From an uncultured Desulfovibrio sp. (lineage in GTDB: Bacteria > Desulfobacterota > Desulfovibrionia > Desulfovibrionales > Desulfovibrionaceae), in assembly GCA_913063155.1 (NCBI GenBank), contig CAJXYU010000006.1:124001-188000 (forward strand): a stretch of 64,000 nt of DNA, written 5' to 3'. Under the pieces are notes generated by a model. The model did no database searches. It was not told the origin of the DNA and saw only the letters and a list, made by a program, of their open reading frames with translations. Made by a program: the position numbers and the translations under genes. Shown one piece after another: positions 31,026 through 41,856 of the stretch (position 1 is the first letter of the stretch; the number at the start of each line of letters is the position of its first letter).

Positions 31026-32609
31026 CTAATCGCCAGCCTGGATGGAAGGAAAAAGGATGATGAAGGAGCTGCCTTTGCCGACCTCGGATTCCACCCGGAT
31101 GCTGCCCCGGTAATGCTCGACGATCTCCTTGCAGATGGCCAGCCCGAGCCCCGTACCCTGCGGCAGGATGTACCCGTCATCTTCCTGCTTGGCCTGGGTG
31201 AATTTTTCAAAAATACGTCCGCAATCCTCCTTCCGGATGCCGACGCCGGTATCCGTAACCCTGATTTCCACAAAGGCATCGTCCAACCGGGAAGCGCTGA
31301 CCGAAACGCTTCCTTCGACCGTGAACTTGGCGGCGTTGTTGATCAGGTTGATGAGAACCTGCTCGATGCGGTCCGGGTCCGCATGGATACGCGGCAGATC
31401 GGGAGGAACCGAACTGGCCAGCACCACGTCCTCGCGCACCTCGAAAAAACCGGACACGGCCTTGAGCACAAGATCAATCAGATCGACGAGATCGACCTCC
31501 CGGTCATTCCAGACCATGTTCCCGGATTCGATCTTGTTCAAGTCGAGCAGTTCATTGATGAGCCGGGTCAATCGCTCGCCTTCAAGTTGTATGATTCGCA
31601 GATTGTCCATGATCCGACGCGCCTTTTTCCCGCTGGAGCGCCGCCCCACGGCAAGAGGCGTAAACGTGTTGTCGAAATCCTTGGCGATCAGTTTGGTGAA
31701 TCCCAGCACCGAAGTGAGCGGCGTACGCAATTCGTGGGAAACCTGCGACAACAAGGAGGACTTGATCTCGTCCAGATCCTGGAGATGGCGGTTGAGCGCC
31801 TCCAGTTCCACGGCCTTTTCCGCAAGCTGGGCAGTACGTTCACGCACCTTTTCCTCAAGCTCCCGGTTCAGCCGGGAAAGCTCGACCTCGGCATCCTGGC
31901 GGGCCTGCATGGTGGAAGCCAGGCTGGCGGTCATGGCATTGATGTTCCTGGCCAGTTCGCCCAATTCATCCTCGCCCAGCCCTTCGACGCGGTGCTCCAG
32001 GTCTCCGGTGGCAATGGCCTGGACGGACCTGACGAGCCGCTGCACGGGTTTACCCACGAATTGCCGCAGCAGAACGGTCAGGGAAAAAATCAGCCCTGCG
32101 CTTGCCGAGAATATGCCGACGATGAGCAGGTCGAAAAGTTGGGAAAACTTCCCGTAAAGCGGAGCGAGATCGAACCCGATCTCCACCTGCCCCACATAGC
32201 CGAGCCCGAGCCTCTTCTCGACCACATCGCGTTTCAATATCAATATATCGCCGTTTTTCTGCGGACGCGGACGCTTAGAGGGGACCACCTTCATGCCGTC
32301 GGCATCGTAAACCTCAACGAACAGAACCTGGCTGTTCTCGAGAAGACTTTCCGCATTGTAGACGAGCACCCCGTAGGCTTGCCGGGCCAATGGCTCCTGG
32401 CTGAACTTGGCGAAAAGATCGGTCATGTACTCGGCATCGTCCCGGGCGTGATCCTTGAGCCTTTCAATATGGATGCGGACCAGGATCAGGCTGGGGATGA
32501 CCATGAACAGGATCAGCCCGATCACGATGATCAGATTAATCCTGAAGGAAAGCCCGGTTCTGAAGGGCATTCGAAAAAATACACTGCTGTCCTGCGTTTC
32601 GGGCATCAC
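31026..32609 (-). CDS. Membrane histidine kinase coupled to a BMP-type lipoprotein
   Basis: This 527-residue kinase has a membrane helix near residues 22-45, an extracytoplasmic region of about 120 residues, and a second helix near 165-188. A HAMP domain (GKPVQRLVRSVQAIATGDLE), a coiled coil and the H-box SQVSHELRTPLTSVLGF follow. The ATPase domain has INNAAKF, DTGVGI and GTGLGLAICKEIVEHY. It has no receiver domain. Its ATG overlaps the stop of the BMP lipoprotein gene by four bases, so the two are translationally coupled. The natural model is that the lipoprotein binds a nucleoside or other ligand and presents it to the kinase. No response regulator is adjacent. Confidence 0.92.
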   Translation of the reverse strand: MMPETQDSSVFFRMPFRTGLSFRINLIIVIGLILFMVIPSLILVRIHIERLKDHARDDAEYMTDLFAKFSQEPLARQAYGVLVYNAESLLENSQVLFVEVYDADGMKVVPSKRPRPQKNGDILILKRDVVEKRLGLGYVGQVEIGFDLAPLYGKFSQLFDLLIVGIFSASAGLIFSLTVLLRQFVGKPVQRLVRSVQAIATGDLEHRVEGLGEDELGELARNINAMTASLASTMQARQDAEVELSRLNRELEEKVRERTAQLAEKAVELEALNRHLQDLDEIKSSLLSQVSHELRTPLTSVLGFTKLIAKDFDNTFTPLAVGRRSSGKKARRIMDNLRIIQLEGERLTRLINELLDLNKIESGNMVWNDREVDLVDLIDLVLKAVSGFFEVREDVVLASSVPPDLPRIHADPDRIEQVLINLINNAAKFTVEGSVSVSASRLDDAFVEIRVTDTGVGIRKEDCGRIFEKFTQAKQEDDGYILPQGTGLGLAICKEIVEHYRGSIRVESEVGKGSSFIILFPSIQAGD

Positions 32610-33700
32610 TGGAGGATTGCGGTGGGCACTTCGATGTTTCCGGAAATGATATCCGCCTTGAGTTCCTCGACCCGCGAAAGCACGGATGCGGGAATGATGT
32701 CCCGGGTATACGTCATGGGACTCAGGCCGACGCCTCCGTTTTCAAGGTCGTAAAGATAGTTCCTGTTTTCGAACCTTCCGTCGACCACTTCGCCGATGAG
32801 CGTTTCCACGGCCACATCCAGACGCTTCATGACGCTGGTCAGTATGATGCCCTCGGCAAGATAATCCTGATCGGAGTCCACGCCGATGGCGTATACGCCA
32901 TGGGCCCGGGCATAGTTGAACACACCGAGCGCGGAAGCTCCCGCCACGGGGAAGAAGACGTCCGCATTTTCCTGGTTGATCATCGACCGTGCAATCTCAA
33001 CTGCCACAGAGGGATTGTTCCATGGCACGGTGCTTCGATCCAGCTCATCAATGAATCTGGTCGTCATTGTTATGGATTCATCCGCAGCCTTTGCGCCGGC
33101 CGCAAAACCACCCAGAAACTCGCGGACAGGGCTGGAATCGGTTCCGCCGATGATACCCAGCGTTTTAGTTCTGGACATGCTCGCCCCGATGAAACCGGCA
33201 AGATAGGCCGCCTGCCCGACGCGAAACGTGGTCGTGGCCGTATTGGGCAGATAATTGTCCATGAGAGTGTCCATGAGGATGAACTTGACCGAAGGATGCT
33301 TGGAGGCGGCCAACTCCACGGCCTGTTTCATGGTGAAGCTGGAGCAGAAGATCGCCGAACAACCACCGGCCGCCAAAGTGTCGAGAATCGAAACGGCTTC
33401 CTCAAGGGTCCCTTCCTGACGCTGTTCCAGAATGAACTCCGCGCCGTATTTCTGGCAGCCGCGCACCAGTCCTTTGTACTGCATGTCCAGGTAGCCACGG
33501 TCGCCAAGACCACTGGTGTCGAGAAACATTCCGATGATGAGCTTGGATGGAGCGGTCCGGCTCGCAGCACTCTTCTCAACATCGTTCACGACCGATTCAT
33601 CCGAGCACCCGGGCAGCAGCAAACATGCGGCAAGGGATAGCAGCAAAGCCGCCAGCACCGTCCTCACACGGAACAAAAAATCGGCATTTACTCCCATCAT
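32606..33700 (-). CDS. BMP-family (Med/PnrA-like) periplasmic binding lipoprotein
   Basis: This protein has 364 residues counted from the ATG at 33700; a second ATG follows immediately and fits the GGGGAG site slightly better. The signal peptide ends in the lipobox LLLPGCSD, so it is lipid-anchored. The mature part matches the BMP family of nucleoside-binding proteins: KLIIGMFLDTSGLGDRGYLD, VKFILMDT, RVGQAAYLAGFIGASMSRTK and ALGVFNYARAHGVYAIGVDS. Such proteins normally feed an ABC importer. Here the only partner is a histidine kinase overlapping the stop codon, pointing to a sensory role. Confidence 0.9.
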   Translation of the reverse strand: MMGVNADFLFRVRTVLAALLLSLAACLLLPGCSDESVVNDVEKSAASRTAPSKLIIGMFLDTSGLGDRGYLDMQYKGLVRGCQKYGAEFILEQRQEGTLEEAVSILDTLAAGGCSAIFCSSFTMKQAVELAASKHPSVKFILMDTLMDNYLPNTATTTFRVGQAAYLAGFIGASMSRTKTLGIIGGTDSSPVREFLGGFAAGAKAADESITMTTRFIDELDRSTVPWNNPSVAVEIARSMINQENADVFFPVAGASALGVFNYARAHGVYAIGVDSDQDYLAEGIILTSVMKRLDVAVETLIGEVVDGRFENRNYLYDLENGGVGLSPMTYTRDIIPASVLSRVEELKADIISGNIEVPTAILQ

Positions 33701-34014
33701 ACAGCTCCCCCGGAACAAACGCCTTTCCCGGAAACAAGGTTTGTAAAAAACGATCACACACTTTTTCCCTTCAAGCAAGGAGGTTATAATCATCACCGAA
33801 TCACCCGACTCCTATGCGGATACGACGTGCCCCCATGCGGGCGAAAGGATTTTCCCGTCGAAACAAGGACGAACGAATGCACCACAAACAACGCTACAAA
33901 AGCTTGTTACGTTCTTTGTGGCTGTGTATATGAATGTTACGATCATGTAACATGTATTGAACTCATTCATATTTAGATGCTAGCGTGCAGTATTCTCTAC
34001 TCAGCGGAGGAAAA
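33701..34014. other. Divergent intergenic region between the BMP/kinase pair and the GAK-type operon
   Basis: This stretch of 314 bases has no gene. It contains the candidate promoter and palindrome of the operon starting at 34015 (see 33904-33953). It is clearly more AT-rich than its surroundings near 33890-33985, as expected for a control region. Confidence 0.6.
33904..33953 (+). promoter_or_regulatory. Candidate sigma70 promoter and palindromic operator of the GAK-type operon
   Basis: A -35-like TTGTTA (33904-33909) and a -10-like TATATG (33927-33932) are separated by 17 bases. A palindrome with 7-bp arms, ATGTTAC-N6-GTAACAT (33934-33953), covers the expected start site. A half-site TGTTAC also overlaps the -35 region. 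This layout suggests repression by an unlinked regulator. The first ATG is 62 bases further on. Confidence 0.5.
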
Positions 34015-34551
34015 ATGGGCACTGAAAACAAGATCGAAAAATACATGGCCGAGAAGGACCTGCCGAAATTTTTCCGTGACCTGGCGGACGCTCTCGAACA
34101 TGGCGGCAAGGATGAATTCGTCTGCGTGGAGGACTTCGCCAAATTCAAGCTCAGCGTGAAAAACGAATTCGGCCAGATGACGGTAAAGGCTAAATTCAAA
34201 CCCGCGAAACCGTGTGAGCCCCCTAGCGTTTCCGAAGAGAGAGGCGCATCCGGAGACCCCGGAAAACCAAGATACAAATCACTCAAGAAGCGCATGAAAA
34301 GCAGCTTCAAGATGATCGTGAAAATGATCCACGACGGAAATCTCCCGCCGAAGGCAGCCGTGGATTCCTTTCTTTCCGATTCGAAACTGATGGTCACCTA
34401 CCCGGGATTCGGCGACGAGTTCTATGGCGAATACATCGAGGCGTGCAACGCTTTCAGAAAGGCTTACGAAGCCGAAAGCATCGCCCTGTGTCTGGAGGCC
34501 GTGAACGTTCTCTCCAGCCAGAAAGGGCAGTGTCACGCCAAGTACGATTGA
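34015..34551 (+). CDS. XXXCH-type protein, first gene of the GAK-type operon
   Basis: This 178-residue soluble protein starts at 34015 with GGAGG five bases upstream. A charged N-terminal half carries a short low-complexity linker around residues 65-90. A helical C-terminal half (SLKKRMKSSFKMIVKMIHDG) ends in GQCHAKYD, with Cys174-His175 near the end. A small domain ending in Cys-His is what annotators have named the XXXCH domain, found with GAK-system genes. I infer membership from this ending and the neighbours. The terminal Cys-His could be a modification or attachment site. No catalytic motif is visible. Confidence 0.75.
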   Translation: MGTENKIEKYMAEKDLPKFFRDLADALEHGGKDEFVCVEDFAKFKLSVKNEFGQMTVKAKFKPAKPCEPPSVSEERGASGDPGKPRYKSLKKRMKSSFKMIVKMIHDGNLPPKAAVDSFLSDSKLMVTYPGFGDEFYGEYIEACNAFRKAYEAESIALCLEAVNVLSSQKGQCHAKYD

Positions 34552-34566
34552 AACACAAAGCCCACA

Positions 34567-35736
34567 ATGAAAAACATGAAATTGATCAAGGACGAAAAAG
34601 CGGACGCGTGCCGCGTCTTCCCGGTTGTTGCCGATGAGGAAATTTCCGAGGCGGATCAAGAACGCTTCTTCAGCGTTGTCTCCGTGGACCTCGCCCCCTG
34701 GCAGGTGGAGCAGGTGCTCACACCGTCCAACGTGTACGTCAGGCAGGAAAGCCTCCTGGCCGTGCACTGGCACCCGGAATTCGTGCCCATGGAACACATC
34801 CGCAAACGCGTGGACGCCATGTTCCCGAACCGCACCGATGAACTGCTCATCCCCACCCAACACAACGTCCTCATGAACTGGGACGGCTACACCGGCGTCG
34901 AGGTGGATTGCTACGCCAGCGGTTTCAACCGCAAGGTCCAGCTGCTGCTCCACTTCACCAACGACAAGGTGGAAAACGGCGGCGTGCTCAAATCCATGCT
35001 CGCCCACACCTTCAAGTACCGCTCCGGCCAGCTTTTCGAATTCATGGACACCATCACCAAACCGGATGAGGACCGCATCGGCAGGGCCGCACGGGCCACC
35101 GGCGCGGACCAGGAACTCATGGAATTCGTGCGTGTGAACGTGTCCAAGATTCAACAGCTTCTGGACGACAACTGGACCGAAGTGCCTCGTCTTTCGGTCA
35201 AGAACAAGCTGCTGCGCAACTGGTTCGACAGCATGCGCCCCGAGTTGGGCGACAATGCCGTGGACAGGATCCAGGCCTACATCAAGAAGATCAAGACCAT
35301 CGTCAAGGAAGGCTTCAACCTCACGTTCTTCTACCGGGCCAGCGAGGTCATTGAAGAGGTCCGGGGGCTGGGCGGCTGCGTCGTCATCCCCCATCCCGAG
35401 CAATTCTGGCCCATCCTGCTGCGCAACTACGACGTGGACGGCATCGAGGTATGGAACCCTCAATCCCAGGAATACACCGAGTTCCTCATTTCGGTCGTCA
35501 ACGAACAGAACGGCAGACGCAAATCCCATGAGCGGGACATGCTCATCTTCATGGGCGACGACTGCCATATGGGCGAAAAGACCAAACCCGAGGACCAGCA
35601 GGACGCGGAAAAGGCATCGCGCGAGATCGGGCTGCAGCCCGCCTGGGATGATCTGAACATCCGCAAGAAGCTCATCGTCAACAATATCGGCCGCCGTTCC
35701 GTCATCAAGGAATACAAGGAGCGACTGGCGGGCTGA
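34567..35736 (+). CDS. PHP-domain-like metal-dependent phosphoesterase of the GAK-type operon
   Basis: This 389-residue soluble protein shows the metal-binding motifs of the PHP superfamily in the right order. They are His67-x-His69 in AVHWHPEF, an acidic GVEVDC, His276 in CVVIPHPEQFW, then DGIEVWN, and the final Asp-x-His in MGDDCHMG (His334). PHP proteins bind two or three metals and hydrolyse phosphate esters. An insert of about 130 helical residues separates the first and later motifs, unlike small PHP enzymes. The start at 34567 has only a weak ribosome site; an ATG three codons later is possible. It lies 15 bases after the XXXCH gene and 23 before the first amphi-Trp gene. Confidence 0.75.
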   Translation: MKNMKLIKDEKADACRVFPVVADEEISEADQERFFSVVSVDLAPWQVEQVLTPSNVYVRQESLLAVHWHPEFVPMEHIRKRVDAMFPNRTDELLIPTQHNVLMNWDGYTGVEVDCYASGFNRKVQLLLHFTNDKVENGGVLKSMLAHTFKYRSGQLFEFMDTITKPDEDRIGRAARATGADQELMEFVRVNVSKIQQLLDDNWTEVPRLSVKNKLLRNWFDSMRPELGDNAVDRIQAYIKKIKTIVKEGFNLTFFYRASEVIEEVRGLGGCVVIPHPEQFWPILLRNYDVDGIEVWNPQSQEYTEFLISVVNEQNGRRKSHERDMLIFMGDDCHMGEKTKPEDQQDAEKASREIGLQPAWDDLNIRKKLIVNNIGRRSVIKEYKERLAG

Positions 35737-35759
35737 CGCTCACAACCGGAGGTTTCACC

Positions 35760-36026
35760 ATGGCTGAAGAAAAGTTCGTTTTCGACTCGCTGCAGGACAG
35801 CGACACCATCAAACAATTCCTCGAGTCCCTGACCGAAGGCTTTGAAAAGGGAAACATCACCCTCACCTCCAACGGAGACGAAATATACCTGCGTCCCGAA
35901 GGCATGCTCAACTTCATGGTCAAGGCGAAAAAAAAGGGTAACGAAAACAAGCTGAGCATCAAGATTTCATGGAAGGAAGTCTCGGGGCCCAAAGACGATG
36001 AGCCCGGCGCTCTCAAAATCAAGTAG
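35760..36026 (+). CDS. Amphi-Trp domain protein, short form
   Basis: This 88-residue protein starts at 35760 with GGAGG eight bases upstream. An amphipathic helix (SDTIKQFLESLTEGFEKG) is followed by three to four strands, the last containing the conserved Trp71 in SIKISWKE. This is the amphi-Trp domain, a small module known mainly from GAK-type loci and haloarchaea. No enzymatic motif is present, so it may be a carrier or substrate. The longer protein at 40936-41541 has its Trp at the same residue number, 71. Confidence 0.85.
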   Translation: MAEEKFVFDSLQDSDTIKQFLESLTEGFEKGNITLTSNGDEIYLRPEGMLNFMVKAKKKGNENKLSIKISWKEVSGPKDDEPGALKIK

Positions 36027-36032
36027 CGGCGT

Positions 36033-37685
36033 ATGATCACATTCGAAGGTTTGGACGAGAATTTCAAATTTCTCGTGCTTGAGGTCGACAACCAGGCCCG
36101 CGCCACGCAACGCTTCATGGCGGCGCCCTCCCGGAAGGGTTTCACCAAGATAACGTCCCGGGACGACTACATCGACAACCTCAAGACCATCATCGAGAAC
36201 AAGTGCTATTCACGCATCCATTCGGACAAATCCCTGGACAAGAACCAGCTCAATAAAATCCGCGCCGTGCAGGTCATGGGCGTGAACCTGGAAAAAATTG
36301 CGGACTATTTCGTGAACATCGTCAAACAGATGCGCTATCTGGATGACCAGTCCTTCATCACGCGCTACAACTTTGACGAGATCTTCGACATCATCTTCTC
36401 AAGCCTCGATCTGATCCGGCCGGCCTTTCAACGGGAAAACATGTCCGACGCGCTGACCATCTGCAAAGCCGAGCCGAGGCTGGACCAAGTCTACAAGGTC
36501 CACTTCGACAGGATCATGAACGAGATGGGCATGGGCCGCAACGCGCAGAGCCTGGTAACGGTCCTGTTCATATTCCGTTACTTCGAACGCGTGGGCGACG
36601 CACTCCTGAACATCGGCGAGGCCATCATCTTTTCGCTGCTGGGCGAACGCATCAAGATCGAACAGTTCGACGCCCTGCAGCAGACCCTGACCAAATCCGG
36701 CTTCAGCGATTCCTTCGCCGACATCGATTTCCGGGCCATATGGGGCACGCGCTCCGGCTGCCGCATCGGCAGGGTGGAATCCCGCAACGGCGACGCCCAA
36801 CCCCGGGAGGAAAAGCAGGGCAGCATCTACAAGGAAGGCAACCTGGAGAAAATCCGCAAGGAACGCGAAAACATCATCCGCTGGAAAGAGGCGTTCCCCA
36901 ACCTCGTGGCCGACGTCTACGGTTTCCACGAGGAATCGGACAAGGGTTCCATGCTGGTGGAATTCCTCAACGGCTGTACCTTGGACGAAGTGGTTCTTTC
37001 CGGCGACGACGACTTCGTGGGAAACGCGTTGTTCGTCTTCGAAAGCACCGTGCTCGACACCTGGACCAACACCCTGGAACGGCTGCCCGTGAAGACCAAC
37101 TATATCTGGCAGATCCAGTCCAGACTGGACAACGTGCTCCAGACCCATCCCGAGTTCTGGCGCATGCCCAAATCCCTGGGCAATGCAGCAGTGCGTTCCA
37201 CCGAGGAGTTGCTCGCCAAATGTGCGGACTTCGAGGACGAGTTGGAAGCACCCTTTTCAGTATTCATCCACGGGGACTTCAATATCAACAACGTGGTCTA
37301 CAACCACGAAGCCCAACAGGTGCACTACATCGACCTCTACCGCTCGCGCGACTTCGACTACGTGCAGGACGTTTCCGTCTTTCTGGTGTCGAACTTCCGC
37401 ATGCCGGTCTTCGAGGAAGGACACCGCGACAGGATCAACAACGTAGTCCGGCAATTCTACAACTTTGCCAAGGGATTTGCCGAGCAGCAGAAGGACAGCA
37501 CCTTCGAAGCCCGCATGGCCTTTGCCCTGGCCCGGTCGTTCTACACCTCGACCCGGTTCGAACTGAACTACAAGTTCGCCAAGGAAATGTACAACCGGGC
37601 CATGTTCCTGCTGGAAAAAATCTATCATTACGGCGGGCGGCAGTGGGAAAAATTCTCCCTGCCCCTGGACATCCTCTTTTACTAG
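36033..37685 (+). CDS. PhoU-domain / phosphotransferase fusion protein
   Basis: This 550-residue cytoplasmic protein combines an N-terminal PhoU-like helical bundle (about residues 25-235) with a C-terminal aminoglycoside-phosphotransferase-like kinase domain. PhoU-like stretches are MGVNLEKIADYFVNIVKQM and FRYFERVGDALLNIGEAI. The catalytic loop is HGDFNINN (413-420), followed by the metal-binding YIDLYRSRDFDYVQD. PhoU modules regulate phosphate transport and kinases; the APH fold phosphorylates small molecules or proteins. I know of no characterised protein with this fusion. It starts six bases after the amphi-Trp gene, with a weak ribosome site, so it may rely on coupling. Confidence 0.85.
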   Translation: MITFEGLDENFKFLVLEVDNQARATQRFMAAPSRKGFTKITSRDDYIDNLKTIIENKCYSRIHSDKSLDKNQLNKIRAVQVMGVNLEKIADYFVNIVKQMRYLDDQSFITRYNFDEIFDIIFSSLDLIRPAFQRENMSDALTICKAEPRLDQVYKVHFDRIMNEMGMGRNAQSLVTVLFIFRYFERVGDALLNIGEAIIFSLLGERIKIEQFDALQQTLTKSGFSDSFADIDFRAIWGTRSGCRIGRVESRNGDAQPREEKQGSIYKEGNLEKIRKERENIIRWKEAFPNLVADVYGFHEESDKGSMLVEFLNGCTLDEVVLSGDDDFVGNALFVFESTVLDTWTNTLERLPVKTNYIWQIQSRLDNVLQTHPEFWRMPKSLGNAAVRSTEELLAKCADFEDELEAPFSVFIHGDFNINNVVYNHEAQQVHYIDLYRSRDFDYVQDVSVFLVSNFRMPVFEEGHRDRINNVVRQFYNFAKGFAEQQKDSTFEARMAFALARSFYTSTRFELNYKFAKEMYNRAMFLLEKIYHYGGRQWEKFSLPLDILFY

Positions 37686-37743
37686 ACGGCCCGACGCACA
37701 AGTCTTGGACCGAATAAAAAGTCAGATTGCAAGGAGCGATACG

Positions 37744-38613
37744 GTGAAGATCGGAGTCATTGGAACCCCGGGAGGCTGGTCGTCGGAGAAACTCGCCGAC
37801 ACTGTGGCCGAAAAGACAGACGGCGAGCGCGTGCTCATCAGCATGGACCAGGTGCGCCTGGACCTGCCTTCGGGCGACGCATTCTTCAACGGCCACAACC
37901 TCAAGGATTTTGACGCGCTGATGATCAAGAAGATCGGGTCGCGCTATTCCCCGGACCTGCTGGACCGGCTGGAAGTGTTGCGATACCTGTCGGAACGGGG
38001 CCTCAAAATATTCAGCCCCCCGCTCGCCATTCTGCGCGCACTCGACCGTCTTTCCTGCACGGTTTCGCTCCAGCTCAACGGCATCCCCATGCCGCCCACC
38101 ACCATCACCGAGAGCGTGGAGCAGGCGCTGGTGGCCCTGGACAAATACGGCGAAGCGGTCTTCAAGCCGCTTTACACCTCCAAGGCGCGCGGCATGTTCA
38201 TCCTCAAAAACGGTCCGGACGCCCGCAAGGCCATCGAGGAATACCGCGCGGAACACCCGATCATGTATATCCAGAAAACCATCGACCTGGGCGATCTGGA
38301 CCTGGGCATCGCCTTCCTGGGCGGCCAGTACCTGACCACCTACGCCCGCTGCAAAACCAACGGCGCGTGGAACACCACCACCGAATCCGGCGGCAAGTAC
38401 CGCGCATTCGAACCGCCGCAGGAAGTCATCGAACTGGCCCGCAGGGCCCAGGAGCCCTTCGGCCTGGACTTCACCTGCGTGGACGTGGCCCTGACCGACG
38501 ACGGCCCCTACATCTTCGAGGTTTCGGTCTTCGGCGGCTTCAGAGGCATCCAGGAAACCAGCGGCATCGACGCGGCGGCACGCTATGTCGACTACGTCAT
38601 GGAGAGGATATGA
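37744..38613 (+). CDS. ATP-grasp enzyme, GAK type
   Basis: This 289-residue protein starts at the GTG at 37744 with AAGGAG seven bases upstream; the longer frame lacks support. The ATP-grasp fold is shown by AVFKPLYTSKARGM (ATP-binding Lys and glycine-loop region), YIQKTIDLGDLDLGIAF, and the metal-binding end FEVSVFGGFRGI followed by GIDAAARYVDY. RimK-type ligases usually have Glu-x-Asn at the metal site; here it reads Glu259-Val-Ser261. Such enzymes join a carboxylate to an amine via an acyl-phosphate, often adding amino acids to a protein or small molecule. Its stop overlaps the kinase start by four bases. Confidence 0.88.
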   Translation: MKIGVIGTPGGWSSEKLADTVAEKTDGERVLISMDQVRLDLPSGDAFFNGHNLKDFDALMIKKIGSRYSPDLLDRLEVLRYLSERGLKIFSPPLAILRALDRLSCTVSLQLNGIPMPPTTITESVEQALVALDKYGEAVFKPLYTSKARGMFILKNGPDARKAIEEYRAEHPIMYIQKTIDLGDLDLGIAFLGGQYLTTYARCKTNGAWNTTTESGGKYRAFEPPQEVIELARRAQEPFGLDFTCVDVALTDDGPYIFEVSVFGGFRGIQETSGIDAAARYVDYVMERI

Positions 38614-39710
38614 TCATGAAGCAGACCGGAACCACCAGAAAAGAACTGGCCGCACAGGTCAGAGCGAACGCGCCCTCGGCCCACGAACTGCTGCTCGATT
38701 TCGGCGGCTGCATCATCCAGGCTCAGTCCAGCACTGTGGAACTGCATGAGGCCCTGGCCGACTATTTCAAGGAATTCGTCATTTCTTCCGGCACCCCGGA
38801 AATCGTGGTCACCGCCCACGAAGCCCCCACCCCGGACCTGCCCCTTGAATTCACCGTCAAGCAACCCGACCCGGGCAAGACCAAGATCAAGGAGGAATGG
38901 GCGGACCTCCCGGACGGGCGCGTGGTGCGAAAGCGCCTTACGGGCATGGCCTTCATCTTCGGCGAAGGTGAGAATGTGGCCGTGGGCCCCTGTCTGGAAA
39001 ACTCCAACCAGGTCATCAATTTCATCAACAACCGCTTCATCGAATGGAAACTCAACCAGGGAGGCTTCCTAGGCCACGCCGCGGGCGTGATCCACAACGG
39101 GCGAGGCATTTCCCTGGCCGGTTTCTCGGGCGCCGGCAAGTCCACCCTGGCCCTGCACCTCATGAGCCGAGGCACCACCTTCGTGAGCAACGACCGGGTT
39201 ATGGTGGAAGAAAACAAGTCGGGGCTGGTCATGTACGGCGTGGCCAAGCAACCCCGCATCAACCCGGGCACCGCGCTCCACAACCCGGACCTGTGCAGGA
39301 TCGTCGACCCCGAACTGCGGGACAGATTCATGTCCATGCCCGCCGAGGACCTGTGGCAATTGGAGCACAAATACGACGCCCTCATCGACGAATGCTACGG
39401 CCCAGGAAAATTTCTGCTGCGCACACACATGGACGCCTTGGTCATCCTCAATTGGAAGCGCGGGGGCGGCCCCATGCGCATGGCTTTGGTGAACGCCAAA
39501 GAGCGCAAGGATCTCTTGCCCGCATTCATGAAGGGCACCGGACTCTTCTATCTCCCCTCCTCCCCGGACTGGCGGGGCGACCCAGGTGTGGATACCTATG
39601 CGGAACTGCTCTCCAAGGCCGACCTCATCGAGTTCTCCGGCGGCATCGATTTCGAACTGGCGGCCGACGTCTGCATGAAATACATGGAAACCGGACGGCT
39701 GCCAAAATAG
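38610..39710 (+). CDS. HprK-related kinase B, GAK type
   Basis: This 366-residue protein starts at 38610 behind GGAGAGG, overlapping the ATP-grasp stop (ATGA). The Walker A motif GFSGAGKST (171-179) and the following SRGTTFVSNDRVMVE align with the P-loop and the VADDxV region of HPr kinase/phosphorylase. The N-terminal 150 residues are unlike HprK. HprK phosphorylates a Ser in a small protein, so this enzyme may phosphorylate a partner such as one of the amphi-Trp or XXXCH proteins. That target assignment is inference. It matches what I recall as the HprK-related kinase B family. Confidence 0.88.
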   Translation: MIMKQTGTTRKELAAQVRANAPSAHELLLDFGGCIIQAQSSTVELHEALADYFKEFVISSGTPEIVVTAHEAPTPDLPLEFTVKQPDPGKTKIKEEWADLPDGRVVRKRLTGMAFIFGEGENVAVGPCLENSNQVINFINNRFIEWKLNQGGFLGHAAGVIHNGRGISLAGFSGAGKSTLALHLMSRGTTFVSNDRVMVEENKSGLVMYGVAKQPRINPGTALHNPDLCRIVDPELRDRFMSMPAEDLWQLEHKYDALIDECYGPGKFLLRTHMDALVILNWKRGGGPMRMALVNAKERKDLLPAFMKGTGLFYLPSSPDWRGDPGVDTYAELLSKADLIEFSGGIDFELAADVCMKYMETGRLPK

Positions 39711-39720
39711 CGGAGCAAAA

Positions 39721-40905
39721 ATGCGCATCAGCATAACGCGCGAGGTGGAGATTCCCGACCGACTCAAGATAGAGCGGTACCGGAGAACCCCCGAACTGGG
39801 GCCCACGATTCTTTTCTTCAGCGGCGGGACGGCCCTGAAGAAAGTCTCGCGCGAACTGATCCGCTACACGCACAACTCCGTTCATCTGATCACGCCCTTC
39901 GACTCGGGCGGCAGTTCGGCCGTCATCCGCAAGGCGTTCAGGATGCCTGCGGTGGGCGACATCAGGAACAGGCTCATGTCCCTGGCCGACCAGTCCGTGC
40001 AGGGCAACCCCGAAATATACGACATCTTCGCGCACCGCCTCCCCAAAGACATGAAGCAGGAGGAACTGCAGAGAGAGCTGCAGCGCATGGCCGACGGCAA
40101 GCATCCTCTGGTGACCCGAATCCCGGACCCCATGCGCAAGATCATCCGCAACCATTTTCACCAATTCATAGAACTCATGCCCGAGAGCTTCGACCTGCGC
40201 GGCGCGAGCATCGGAAACCTGGTGCTCACCGCCGGGTACCTGGGCAACCGCAAACAGATGGATCCGGTTATCTACATCTTTTCCAAACTGGTGCAGGTGT
40301 GCGGTACGGTGCGGCCCATCCTCAACAAGGACCTGCATCTGGCGGCGCGCCTGCAGGACGGCAGTGTGGTCGTCGGCCAGCACAGAATGACCGGCAAGGA
40401 AGTGGACCCGCTCTCCTCCCCCATAGAGGATATCTGGTTGACGAACTCCACTGAGAGCGCCGACCCCGTGGAAGTGGAAATTCGAAAAAAGGTGCGGGAC
40501 AGAATAGCTGATGCGGACCTGATATGTTATCCCATAGGCAGCTTTTACTCGAGCGTCGTCGCCAACCTTCTGCCCCAGGGGGTAGGCCGGGCGGTCGCGC
40601 AAAACACCTGCCCGAAGGTGTTCATCCCCAACACCGGTTATGATCCGGAGGCGTTCGGACTGAGCATCCTGGAGCAGGTGGCCCGCCTGCAGAAATACCT
40701 GCTGTGCAGCGGCGCGCCCGCCGGGGCGGACGTGCTCGGCCACGTGATCGTGGACACCAGGAACGGCCAATACCAGGGCGGCGTGGACAAGGAAGGCATA
40801 CGCAAACAAGGGGTGCGGTTCGTGGACTGCACCTTGGTGACGGAGGAAAGCGCACCGTTCATCGACGAACGACGCCTGACGGAAGTCCTGCTGTCACTGA
40901 CGTAA
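39721..40905 (+). CDS. CofD-related protein, GAK type
   Basis: This 394-residue protein starts at 39721 with GGAG six bases upstream. It has the CofD/YvcK-family nucleotide-binding start FFSGGTALKKVSREL, followed by HLITPFDSGGSSAVIRKAF and AVGDIRNRLMSLAD. Later comes DADLICYPIGSFYSSVVANLL, the second conserved region. CofD transfers 2-phospholactate onto Fo in coenzyme F420 synthesis; YvcK relatives have regulatory roles. No other F420 genes are in the window. Within a GAK-type locus it may carry out a different phospho-transfer reaction. Confidence 0.88.
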   Translation: MRISITREVEIPDRLKIERYRRTPELGPTILFFSGGTALKKVSRELIRYTHNSVHLITPFDSGGSSAVIRKAFRMPAVGDIRNRLMSLADQSVQGNPEIYDIFAHRLPKDMKQEELQRELQRMADGKHPLVTRIPDPMRKIIRNHFHQFIELMPESFDLRGASIGNLVLTAGYLGNRKQMDPVIYIFSKLVQVCGTVRPILNKDLHLAARLQDGSVVVGQHRMTGKEVDPLSSPIEDIWLTNSTESADPVEVEIRKKVRDRIADADLICYPIGSFYSSVVANLLPQGVGRAVAQNTCPKVFIPNTGYDPEAFGLSILEQVARLQKYLLCSGAPAGADVLGHVIVDTRNGQYQGGVDKEGIRKQGVRFVDCTLVTEESAPFIDERRLTEVLLSLT

Positions 40906-40935
40906 TCGTAAACATTGTTTGAGGAGGTTTGGTTC

Positions 40936-41541
40936 ATGCAGAAGGAAAAACTCGAAGTCAAACTGTCCCTGTCCTACAAGGAAGCGATCGCATACATTGA
41001 AGATCTGCTCAAAAGTCTCAACTCCGGCAAGATCATCGTGCAAAAGGACGACGATTTCGTGGCCATGTCGCCGCCGGAACAGGTGATGGTGGAACTGGGG
41101 GCAAAGGTCAAGAAGGGCAAGCACAAATTCTCGTTCGAGATGGCCTGGGCTGCTCTGGAAAGTGGAGGCTGCGTGAAGATCACGGACAAGGAGCCCGAGG
41201 CCAGGCCCGACGTTCCCGCCAAAAAGGAAGACACGGTTCCGGCCACAAAGAAGACCGCCTCCGTGGTCGCCAAAGAGACCGCGCCCCCGGCGAAAAAGGC
41301 CGCTCCCAAGAAGCCTGCGGCCAAAAAAACCGCAGCCAAGAAAGCGGCGGCAAAAAAGTCACCCGCCAAGAAGCCGGTGACAAAACCGGCGACCAAAAAA
41401 ACGGCGGCAAAGAAACCGCCGGTGAAGCCCGCTGAAAAGGCCAAGGCGACCTCCGCCACGGAAGCCACCCCCAAAGCCACCGCAGTCAAGCCGTCAGCCA
41501 CGCCCATGAGCAAGCCGACCACGACCGGGACCAAACCCTAG
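40936..41541 (+). CDS. Amphi-Trp domain protein with a long lysine/alanine/proline-rich tail
   Basis: This 201-residue protein starts at 40936 behind GAGGAGG. Residues 1-85 form an amphi-Trp domain (helix YKEAIAYIEDLLKSLNSG, conserved Trp71 in SFEMAWAA). Residues from about 95 to the end are a disordered tail of Lys, Ala, Pro and Thr with repeated AAKK/PAKK units, similar to histone H1 or bacterial H1-like tails. Such a tail would bind nucleic acid or another polyanion such as polyphosphate. It is the longer counterpart of the 88-residue protein at 35760-36026. The repeats may vary in length between strains. Confidence 0.85.
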   Translation: MQKEKLEVKLSLSYKEAIAYIEDLLKSLNSGKIIVQKDDDFVAMSPPEQVMVELGAKVKKGKHKFSFEMAWAALESGGCVKITDKEPEARPDVPAKKEDTVPATKKTASVVAKETAPPAKKAAPKKPAAKKTAAKKAAAKKSPAKKPVTKPATKKTAAKKPPVKPAEKAKATSATEATPKATAVKPSATPMSKPTTTGTKP

Positions 41542-41580
41542 GGCACGACTGAACGCACGTTGAAACACGAGGAGGATTCC

Positions 41581-41766
41581 ATGGGCACGGAAGATGCGGC
41601 CAAGTGTTTTGAGTGGAATGAACTGGTCGAAGTGCTCTGCATCCGAGAAGCGGAGCGGATGGACGAGGCGGAACGGAAAGATATCCTGAAACGCGTCAAC
41701 AGCCTGGCCGCCCGGTACGGCCGGGAATACGTGGTCCGGAAAATCGCCCTGCTCTCTTCCCACTGA
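41581..41766 (+). CDS. Small protein of unknown function, last gene of the GAK-type operon
   Basis: This 61-residue protein starts at 41581 with GAGGAGGA upstream. It is acidic, predicted to be mostly helical, and has two Cys and a C-terminal SSH ending. I recognise no family. Its good ribosome site, the 39-base gap from the amphi-Trp gene and the terminator right after it support a real gene in the same operon. Confidence 0.72.
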   Translation: MGTEDAAKCFEWNELVEVLCIREAERMDEAERKDILKRVNSLAARYGREYVVRKIALLSSH

Positions 41767-41824
41767 CGAAAAAGGGAACGGCACGGGGTCAGCCGCCTCT
41801 GTTGCACATTTCCCGCTACGAATG

Positions 41825-41856
41825 AAAAAGGTCACATGGGCATGTGACCTTTTTTT
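41825..41856 (+). terminator. Terminator of the GAK-type operon
   Basis: A perfect 14-bp stem (AAAAAGGTCACATG / CATGTGACCTTTTT) is followed by more T residues. It starts 59 bases after the last stop and defines the operon end. Confidence 0.92.

Follow-up and report, generated by a model that had tools for sequence, protein, structure and literature searches.

The GAK system is a named but functionally unexplained set of enzymes, which was not found described in print by a literature search. A complete operon of this type, as judged from its sequence, occupies positions 34015-41766 of a 64,000-nucleotide stretch of DNA from an uncultured Desulfovibrio sp. (contig CAJXYU010000006.1; this whole stretch is hereafter called the window). 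The reading that we favour, albeit tentatively, is that GAK may be a PhoB-controlled phosphate-handling system by which phosphate is loaded and unloaded, likely as a store or buffer, perhaps replacing polyphosphate. New here are the promoter repeat that GAK operons share with the phosphate-transport gene pstS, the modularity of the set, the domain make-up of the XXXCH protein encoded by the first gene and the contrast in polyphosphate kinases (PPKs) between genomes with and without GAK. The features of the locus are the following:

33936..33962, plus strand: Pho-box-like element (GTTAC/GTAAC/TGAAC, 11-base-pair (bp) spacing); the same repeat class precedes pstS of the same genome
34015..34551, plus strand: XXXCH protein (TIGR04358, structure model, fold matches, profile matches, conservation)
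34567..35736, plus strand: putative PHP-type phosphoesterase (HWH, H99, H129, HPE and GDDxH motifs)
35760..36026, plus strand: amphi-Trp protein 1 (TIGR04354, PF20068; structure model)
36033..37685, plus strand: PhoU-kinase, a PhoU domain joined to a kinase of APH/EcKL type (PF01895, PF02958, PhoU matches in the PDB, invariant residues)
37705..38613, plus strand: GAK ATP-grasp enzyme, RimK/MptN-like (TIGR04356, RimK in the PDB, alignment)
38610..39710, plus strand: HprK-related kinase B, HprK-B (TIGR04355, HprK in the PDB, alignment)
39721..40905, plus strand: CofD/YvcK-like GAK protein (TIGR04357, UPF0052-type structures in the PDB)
40936..41541, plus strand: amphi-Trp protein 2, whose histone H1-like tail is rich in Lys, Ala and Pro (TIGR04354)
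41581..41766, plus strand: small protein, gene 9 (a TTG frame opens at 41560)
41824..41855, plus strand: intrinsic terminator hairpin (-20.8 kcal/mol, z -5.75)

The GAK identity had been proposed in a first-pass annotation from family names, and a search against the NCBIfam GAK models upheld it. Six of the proteins exceed the curated cut-offs, namely XXXCH (93.6 bits, cut-off 40), amphi-Trp 1 and 2 (74.5 and 57.8 bits, cut-off 31), the ATP-grasp enzyme (442.4 bits, cut-off 300), HprK-B (548.4 bits, cut-off 200) and the CofD protein (557.4 bits, cut-off 340), and all five models TIGR04354-TIGR04358 are thereby matched above cut-off within one operon. The names of these models give no function, and the PHP gene, the PhoU-kinase and the small genes bear no GAK name. 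All nine reading frames were found in place, spaced 6 to about 40 bases apart, except that the stop of the ATP-grasp gene overlaps the start of HprK-B by 4 bases; from this layout, transcription as a single unit is inferred. The strong terminator that had been placed at 41825 was recovered as a hairpin which is strong by folding though absent from the consensus-scan list. A candidate promoter claimed at 33904 is missing from the σ70 scan list, and the repeat at 33936-33962 has the stronger support.

This repeat comprises three Pho-box-like units of 11 bp, at 33936, 33947 and 33958, and its strict three-unit pattern occurs a single time within the 64-kb window, before the GAK operon. The pstS gene of the same genome (L117/L127) is preceded by GTAAC-N6-GTAAC. 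When upstream regions were compared, exact TAAC pairs at 11 bp were counted in 5 of 29 GAK upstreams, 7 of 30 pstS upstreams and none of 30 controls (sequence lying beyond the distal end of the pstS match); when one mismatch was tolerated, the counts rose to 13/29 and 13/30, the window's operon and its own pstS among them, and stayed at 0/30 in the controls. At other spacings between 6 and 27 bp, the GAK upstreams gave 0-4 pairs and the pstS upstreams 0-7; the exception was 22 bp, where the next repeat falls, with 7 and 10 pairs, respectively. The count is free of weights, but the TAAC core was first spotted by looking at GAK upstreams, so that the pstS set serves as the independent check. Upstream lengths were 300 bases for GAK and 400 for pstS, which still gives 13/30 when trimmed to 300; the GAK set, into which four genomes enter twice, omits L039, L043, L044, L015 and L060, in which the first gene is broken or truncated at a contig end. 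By a weighted motif score, whose weights were picked after looking, 12 of the 29 GAK upstreams lie above the 95th percentile of 216 upstreams that belong to other genes of those loci. No repeat was seen before 10 stand-alone CofD genes tested (of 12).

Gene neighbourhood points in the same direction, since three GAK loci adjoin pst, phoU or phoBR-like genes. At L041, pstS and two permease genes continue into the GAK operon, with a PhoB-PhoR-like pair diverging from them; pst genes, phoU and PhoH lie near the operon at L059, and phoU with a histidine kinase at L054. For D. vulgaris, binding of PhoB to a Pho box is described in PMC6456213, and a PhoB-class regulator thus exists in such bacteria. 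Taken together, GAK operons are predicted, with considerable assurance, to be under Pho regulation. What GAK shares with the known Pho regulon is the 11-bp TAAC repeat and the adjacency seen in the three loci, whereas binding of PhoB at a GAK operon is only a prediction, and none of the papers listed by literature searches counts any GAK gene among the Pho genes. Were the prediction correct, the label of unknown function would turn into a one-condition experiment, namely phosphate limitation. The same Pho-box and pst-neighbour evidence, together with the fact that PHP enzymes are phosphoesterases by family, would also suit a plain phosphate-starvation set that scavenges or replaces phosphate-containing cell parts and stores nothing. 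We hold this to be very unlikely, because the conserved set includes neither a transporter, nuclease or lipid gene nor, by eye, any signal for secretion, and its three kinase/ligase-type enzymes would use up ATP.

A link to phosphate fits the pairing of the PhoU-kinase with the PHP gene. The former had been described as a PhoU-phosphotransferase fusion, and both halves were recovered: PF01895 is matched at 61.7 bits (cut-off 23.5), with PhoU relatives in the PDB and a score below the cut-off of the full-length PhoU equivalog, while the kinase half gives an EcKL/APH-type match (PF02958), in which HGDFNxxN and D434 are invariant in 20 sequences. The description of the other gene as a PHP-like phosphoesterase fared less evenly. 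Its motif series (HWH, H99, H129, HPE, GDDxH) is invariant in 19 of 19 sequences, but no PHP match was obtained in Pfam, NCBIfam or the PDB, and PF02811 was found in 0 of 19 relatives; the label therefore rests on the motifs. Compared by hhalign with PHP proteins of the same genomes, it gave a weak match (7% probability, E 0.005) with HP/GIEV/GSDxH in register, and a second profile comparison, with two sequences, gave none. A phosphate cycle run by these two enzymes is predicted as the somewhat more probable case, with two observations in its support: the kinase itself carries the PhoU domain, and a minimal form of the module keeps kinase and PHP gene together.

That minimal form emerged from a survey of 395 genomes of the phylum, whose genome-wide counts concern the enzyme genes of the set; out-of-frame reading frames matched by the HPRK profile, as well as some antisense frames, were ignored. 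The ATP-grasp enzyme exceeds its cut-off in 24 genomes from nine families (eight besides that of the window), relatives including Desulfovibrionaceae and a Desulfobacteraceae bacterium. All 24 hold the PhoU-kinase, one copy being cut by a contig end; HprK-B is over cut-off in 23, the CofD protein in 19 (one more genome has it split into two pieces), and the PHP gene is present in 21, a contig end lying close to the locus in the three others. In 34 chosen genomes lacking the ATP-grasp gene, no PHP gene, no HprK-B over cut-off and no PhoU-kinase match above 43 bits was found. The genes of the set thus co-occur across genomes, and their order is kept across the relatives' loci (XXXCH, PHP, amphi-Trp 1, PhoU-kinase, ATP-grasp, HprK-B, CofD, amphi-Trp 2), as would be expected from the first-pass claim of one system. 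In one family, seven loci have XXXCH as the last gene at the 3' end instead, and some loci gave no XXXCH match.

The claim of one system nevertheless has to be qualified, for the complete set is conserved but modular, judging from gene content: PHP and CofD also occur apart from the rest, so GAK is not indivisible. The PHP gene is present in 28 of the 395 genomes, that is, in 7 besides the 21 mentioned. Six genomes of another family hold it with no ATP-grasp enzyme over cut-off, and four of these (L161-L163, L166) have the order PHP-amphi-Trp-PhoU-kinase, with no ATP-grasp, HprK or CofD nearby; a YbaB/EbfC-like gene (by eye) lies just upstream of them. One genus (L051-L053, L079-L081) splits the set between two places, the first with XXXCH-PHP-amphi-Trp-PhoU-kinase-HprK and the second with ATP-grasp-HprK and CofD together with a peroxiredoxin and, by eye, a Pta-like gene. 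Copies without CofD are L056 and L057, and none was seen in the fetched stretches of L039, L043 and L050. Conversely, 11 of the 34 genomes (L083-L093), all from one genus of the window's family, have a CofD over the GAK cut-off with no ATP-grasp, PHP, HprK-B or PhoU-kinase, and the NCBIfam name hence overcalls GAK. From this distribution of modules, kinase, amphi-Trp and PHP are taken as the core.

By eye, the stand-alone CofD genes neighbour mnmE and a pseudouridine synthase and, in most cases, a PhoU-like DUF47 gene and a Pit-type transporter. A second CofD of this kind is present in the window's genome (L082:9484-10656), where by eye it adjoins aroK and trk genes, and the copies L056 and L057 sit, like it, near aroK, between that gene and aroC (by eye).

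In the mechanism that we propose, PhoB would bind the repeats and turn the operon on at low phosphate. The three-gene core (PHP, amphi-Trp 1, PhoU-kinase) would form a phosphorylation cycle, in which the PhoU-linked kinase, gated by its PhoU domain, would add phosphate to one shared substrate and the PHP-type enzyme would remove it. The ATP-grasp, HprK-B and CofD-like enzymes may extend or anchor the product, the amphi-Trp domains may act as carrier or scaffold, and XXXCH may report heme, redox or nitric oxide (NO) state to the system. Such a reading would supply a minimal three-gene core for an enzyme set whose ATP-grasp member recurs in nine families of the sample, and would predict a possible place for the missing substitute for polyphosphate in these bacteria.

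The three enzymes outside the core also lend themselves to other explanations. The ATP-grasp enzyme belongs to the same family as the RimK/MptN glutamate ligases over nearly its whole length, MptN being the nearest, but scores below the cut-offs of both (105.1 against 143.4 bits for RimK, 145.6 against 350 for MptN). The EVN of RimK has a metal-binding role, and in all 18 GAK sequences aligned it is EVS. Given that CofD and MptN relatives act on cofactors, such a ligase might add an amino acid to XXXCH, to amphi-Trp or to a phosphorylated cofactor, with the kinases and the CofD-like protein finishing the modification and phosphate control setting its timing only; the strongly conserved C-terminus of XXXCH also counts in its favour. 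We regard this as rather doubtful, since the EVN-to-EVS change is seen in every aligned sequence, the minimal module has no adjoining ligase and the conserved end of XXXCH is accounted for by its relation to cytochrome c'.

HprK-B, in turn, keeps the P-loop, H156 and D195, with Asn for the first Asp of the DD pair, and falls far below the HPr kinase/phosphorylase equivalog cut-off (30.6 against 240 bits). The CofD protein, compared with the PDB at E up to 0.01, matched only UPF0052/YvcK-type structures. A set of HprK, HPr/Crh and YvcK is known from Bacillus, and a relay modelled on it would have HprK-B phosphorylate amphi-Trp and the YvcK-like CofD sense a nucleotide sugar, carbon flow being matched to phosphate supply. 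Conservation of the HprK-type P-loop, His and Asp in 21 of 21 sequences, the nearness of the CofD protein to the YvcK family and the single-strand arrangement of ATP-grasp and HprK with the peroxiredoxin and Pta-like gene (by eye) in the split-set genus all speak for such signalling, which we nonetheless judge unlikely. For the amphi-Trp proteins, a possible HPr-like fold drew no convincing PDB match from either Foldseek or VIA-align; the structure model of amphi-Trp 1 consists of one helix and four main strands. A link to lactate had also been entertained through DVU3031, taken for a CofD-like neighbour of pta-ack. It was dropped because DVU3031 carries AAA and DRTGG domains, as stated in the pertinent parts of PMC4481167 and PMC10102598.

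Within the favoured phosphate-handling reading, XXXCH is the candidate sensor. An N-terminal amphi-Trp-like domain (about residues 1-64) precedes a C-terminal domain (about 84-178) that, on the modelled structure, very probably has the cytochrome c' fold: the AlphaFold model (predicted local distance difference test score, pLDDT, 84.9; predicted template modelling score, pTM, 0.55) is an antiparallel four-helix bundle with Foldseek and VIA-align matches, and a search at E up to 1 found PF01322 in 11 of the 21 relatives, with a best value of 3.7e-6, but not in the window's own protein. The N-terminal domain aligned with amphi-Trp by hhalign at E 2.2e-7 and 6.7e-8 (probability 93.5 and 94.6%), or only 0.001 with close relatives alone; PF20068, with the same limit of E up to 1, was matched by 11 of the 21 relatives, the best value being 4.3e-5, and the conserved Trp of amphi-Trp was not seen in the XXXCH alignment. 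At the C-terminal site, K170-x-x-C173-H174, the Cys-His of CXXCH is kept: C173-H174 is present in 21 of 21 sequences, and the first Cys is replaced, by Lys in at least 90% of them, so the full CXXCH heme-attachment motif is absent. XXXCH may bind heme, a proposal to which we give slightly less than even odds. By sequence, it is a cytosolic protein, with no signal peptide seen by eye, and it differs from cytochromes c' and b562 in this respect, in the Lys in place of the first Cys and in the fusion to an amphi-Trp-like domain. A cytosolic protein of cytochrome c' fold short of one heme-attachment Cys would be unusual in itself. In a table of PMC8879037, the term "XXXCH domain" is also applied to a gene for a phage tail fibre.

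As regards polyphosphate, PPK1 is over cut-off in 40 of the 395 genomes, PPK2 in 45 and either of them in 59. None of these 59 is among the 24 GAK genomes, as against 59 of the 371 others (Fisher one-sided p 0.018, or 0.071 for PPK1 and 0.050 for PPK2 alone, phylogeny being ignored); in the window's family, PPK1 occurs in 0 of 6 GAK genomes and in 8 of 11 others, these eleven being one genus. A second likeness to polyphosphate systems, besides the phosphate theme, is the H1-like tail that amphi-Trp 2 shares with AlgP, a polyphosphate-granule protein in the account given by part of PMC9239181; differences are the lack of a PPK over cut-off in the GAK genomes and the scarcity of the tail among relatives. 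The tail matches H1-like models below their cut-offs and, defined by K of at least 0.2 and A+K+P+T of at least 0.6, is found in the window's amphi-Trp 2 and 5 of 24 relatives, the others being acidic, short or mixed; since it varies between loci, it is not a core feature. A storage role for GAK is best called a possibility on the doubtful side. Its most specific form, a non-polyphosphate store in PPK-less sulfate reducers, in which PhoB-driven kinases and the ATP-grasp enzyme would load a small organic core, PHP would unload it and the KxxCH c'-fold protein would sense redox or NO, seems quite improbable. Granules of Desulfovibrio gigas are reported to hold glucose pentakis(diphosphate), a sugar diphosphate that would be an example of such a core; a literature search for it found nothing. 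A 1975 paper, titled for polyphosphate formation in D. gigas and known here from its citation in PMC9239181 and PMC5134017, counts against that compound, and the available sections of the D. gigas genome paper (PMC4287179) do not mention polyphosphate.

Several observations weigh against the favoured reading. At the promoter, 16 of the 29 GAK upstreams have no repeat by the one-mismatch test, including the five loci that come from named genomes, the window's nearest relatives (L032-L036); no promoter-proximal repeat precedes the six loci tested in the minimal-module family; and on the opposite strand of the GAK upstreams, the 11-bp spacing scores 5/29 and the 10-bp spacing 7. Phylogeny confounds the PPK contrast, with 8 of the 40 genomes that hold PPK1 belonging to one genus of the window's family. 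Moreover, the GAK genomes G130 and G000 show weak PPK matches that stay under the cut-offs, PPK1 is present in 2 of the 6 genomes of the minimal-module family that have PHP, and PPK2 is present in G218, which has PHP but no ATP-grasp. The ATP-grasp enzyme is of the peptide/cofactor ligase type and no known phosphate kinase. Lastly, a tether to granules through the H1-like tail had to be rejected, given that the tail is not conserved.

Some further features of the locus and its relatives may be mentioned. For gene 9, the ATG at 41581, with a ribosome-binding site recognizable by eye, is the more likely start than the TTG at 41560; its product has no family match in Pfam or NCBIfam, and relatives are found in two loci by BLASTP and in three by profile. 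A role in anti-phage defence was dropped, as PADLOC matched none of the nine operon proteins at E up to 0.001. In L044 (G046), in-frame stops interrupt PHP, PhoU-kinase and CofD, indicating a decaying copy or assembly errors. Outside the GAK genes, no flanking cluster specific to GAK loci was found; the two widest (c6, c7), which resemble histidine kinases and mixed proteins, were not followed up. Upstream of the operon, the opposite strand of the window (31026-33796) encodes, by eye, a BMP-type lipoprotein and a histidine kinase, and in two relatives (L032:7926-8711, L034:13659-14456) a ParA-like gene (by eye) comes after the operon, as does one more amphi-Trp gene.

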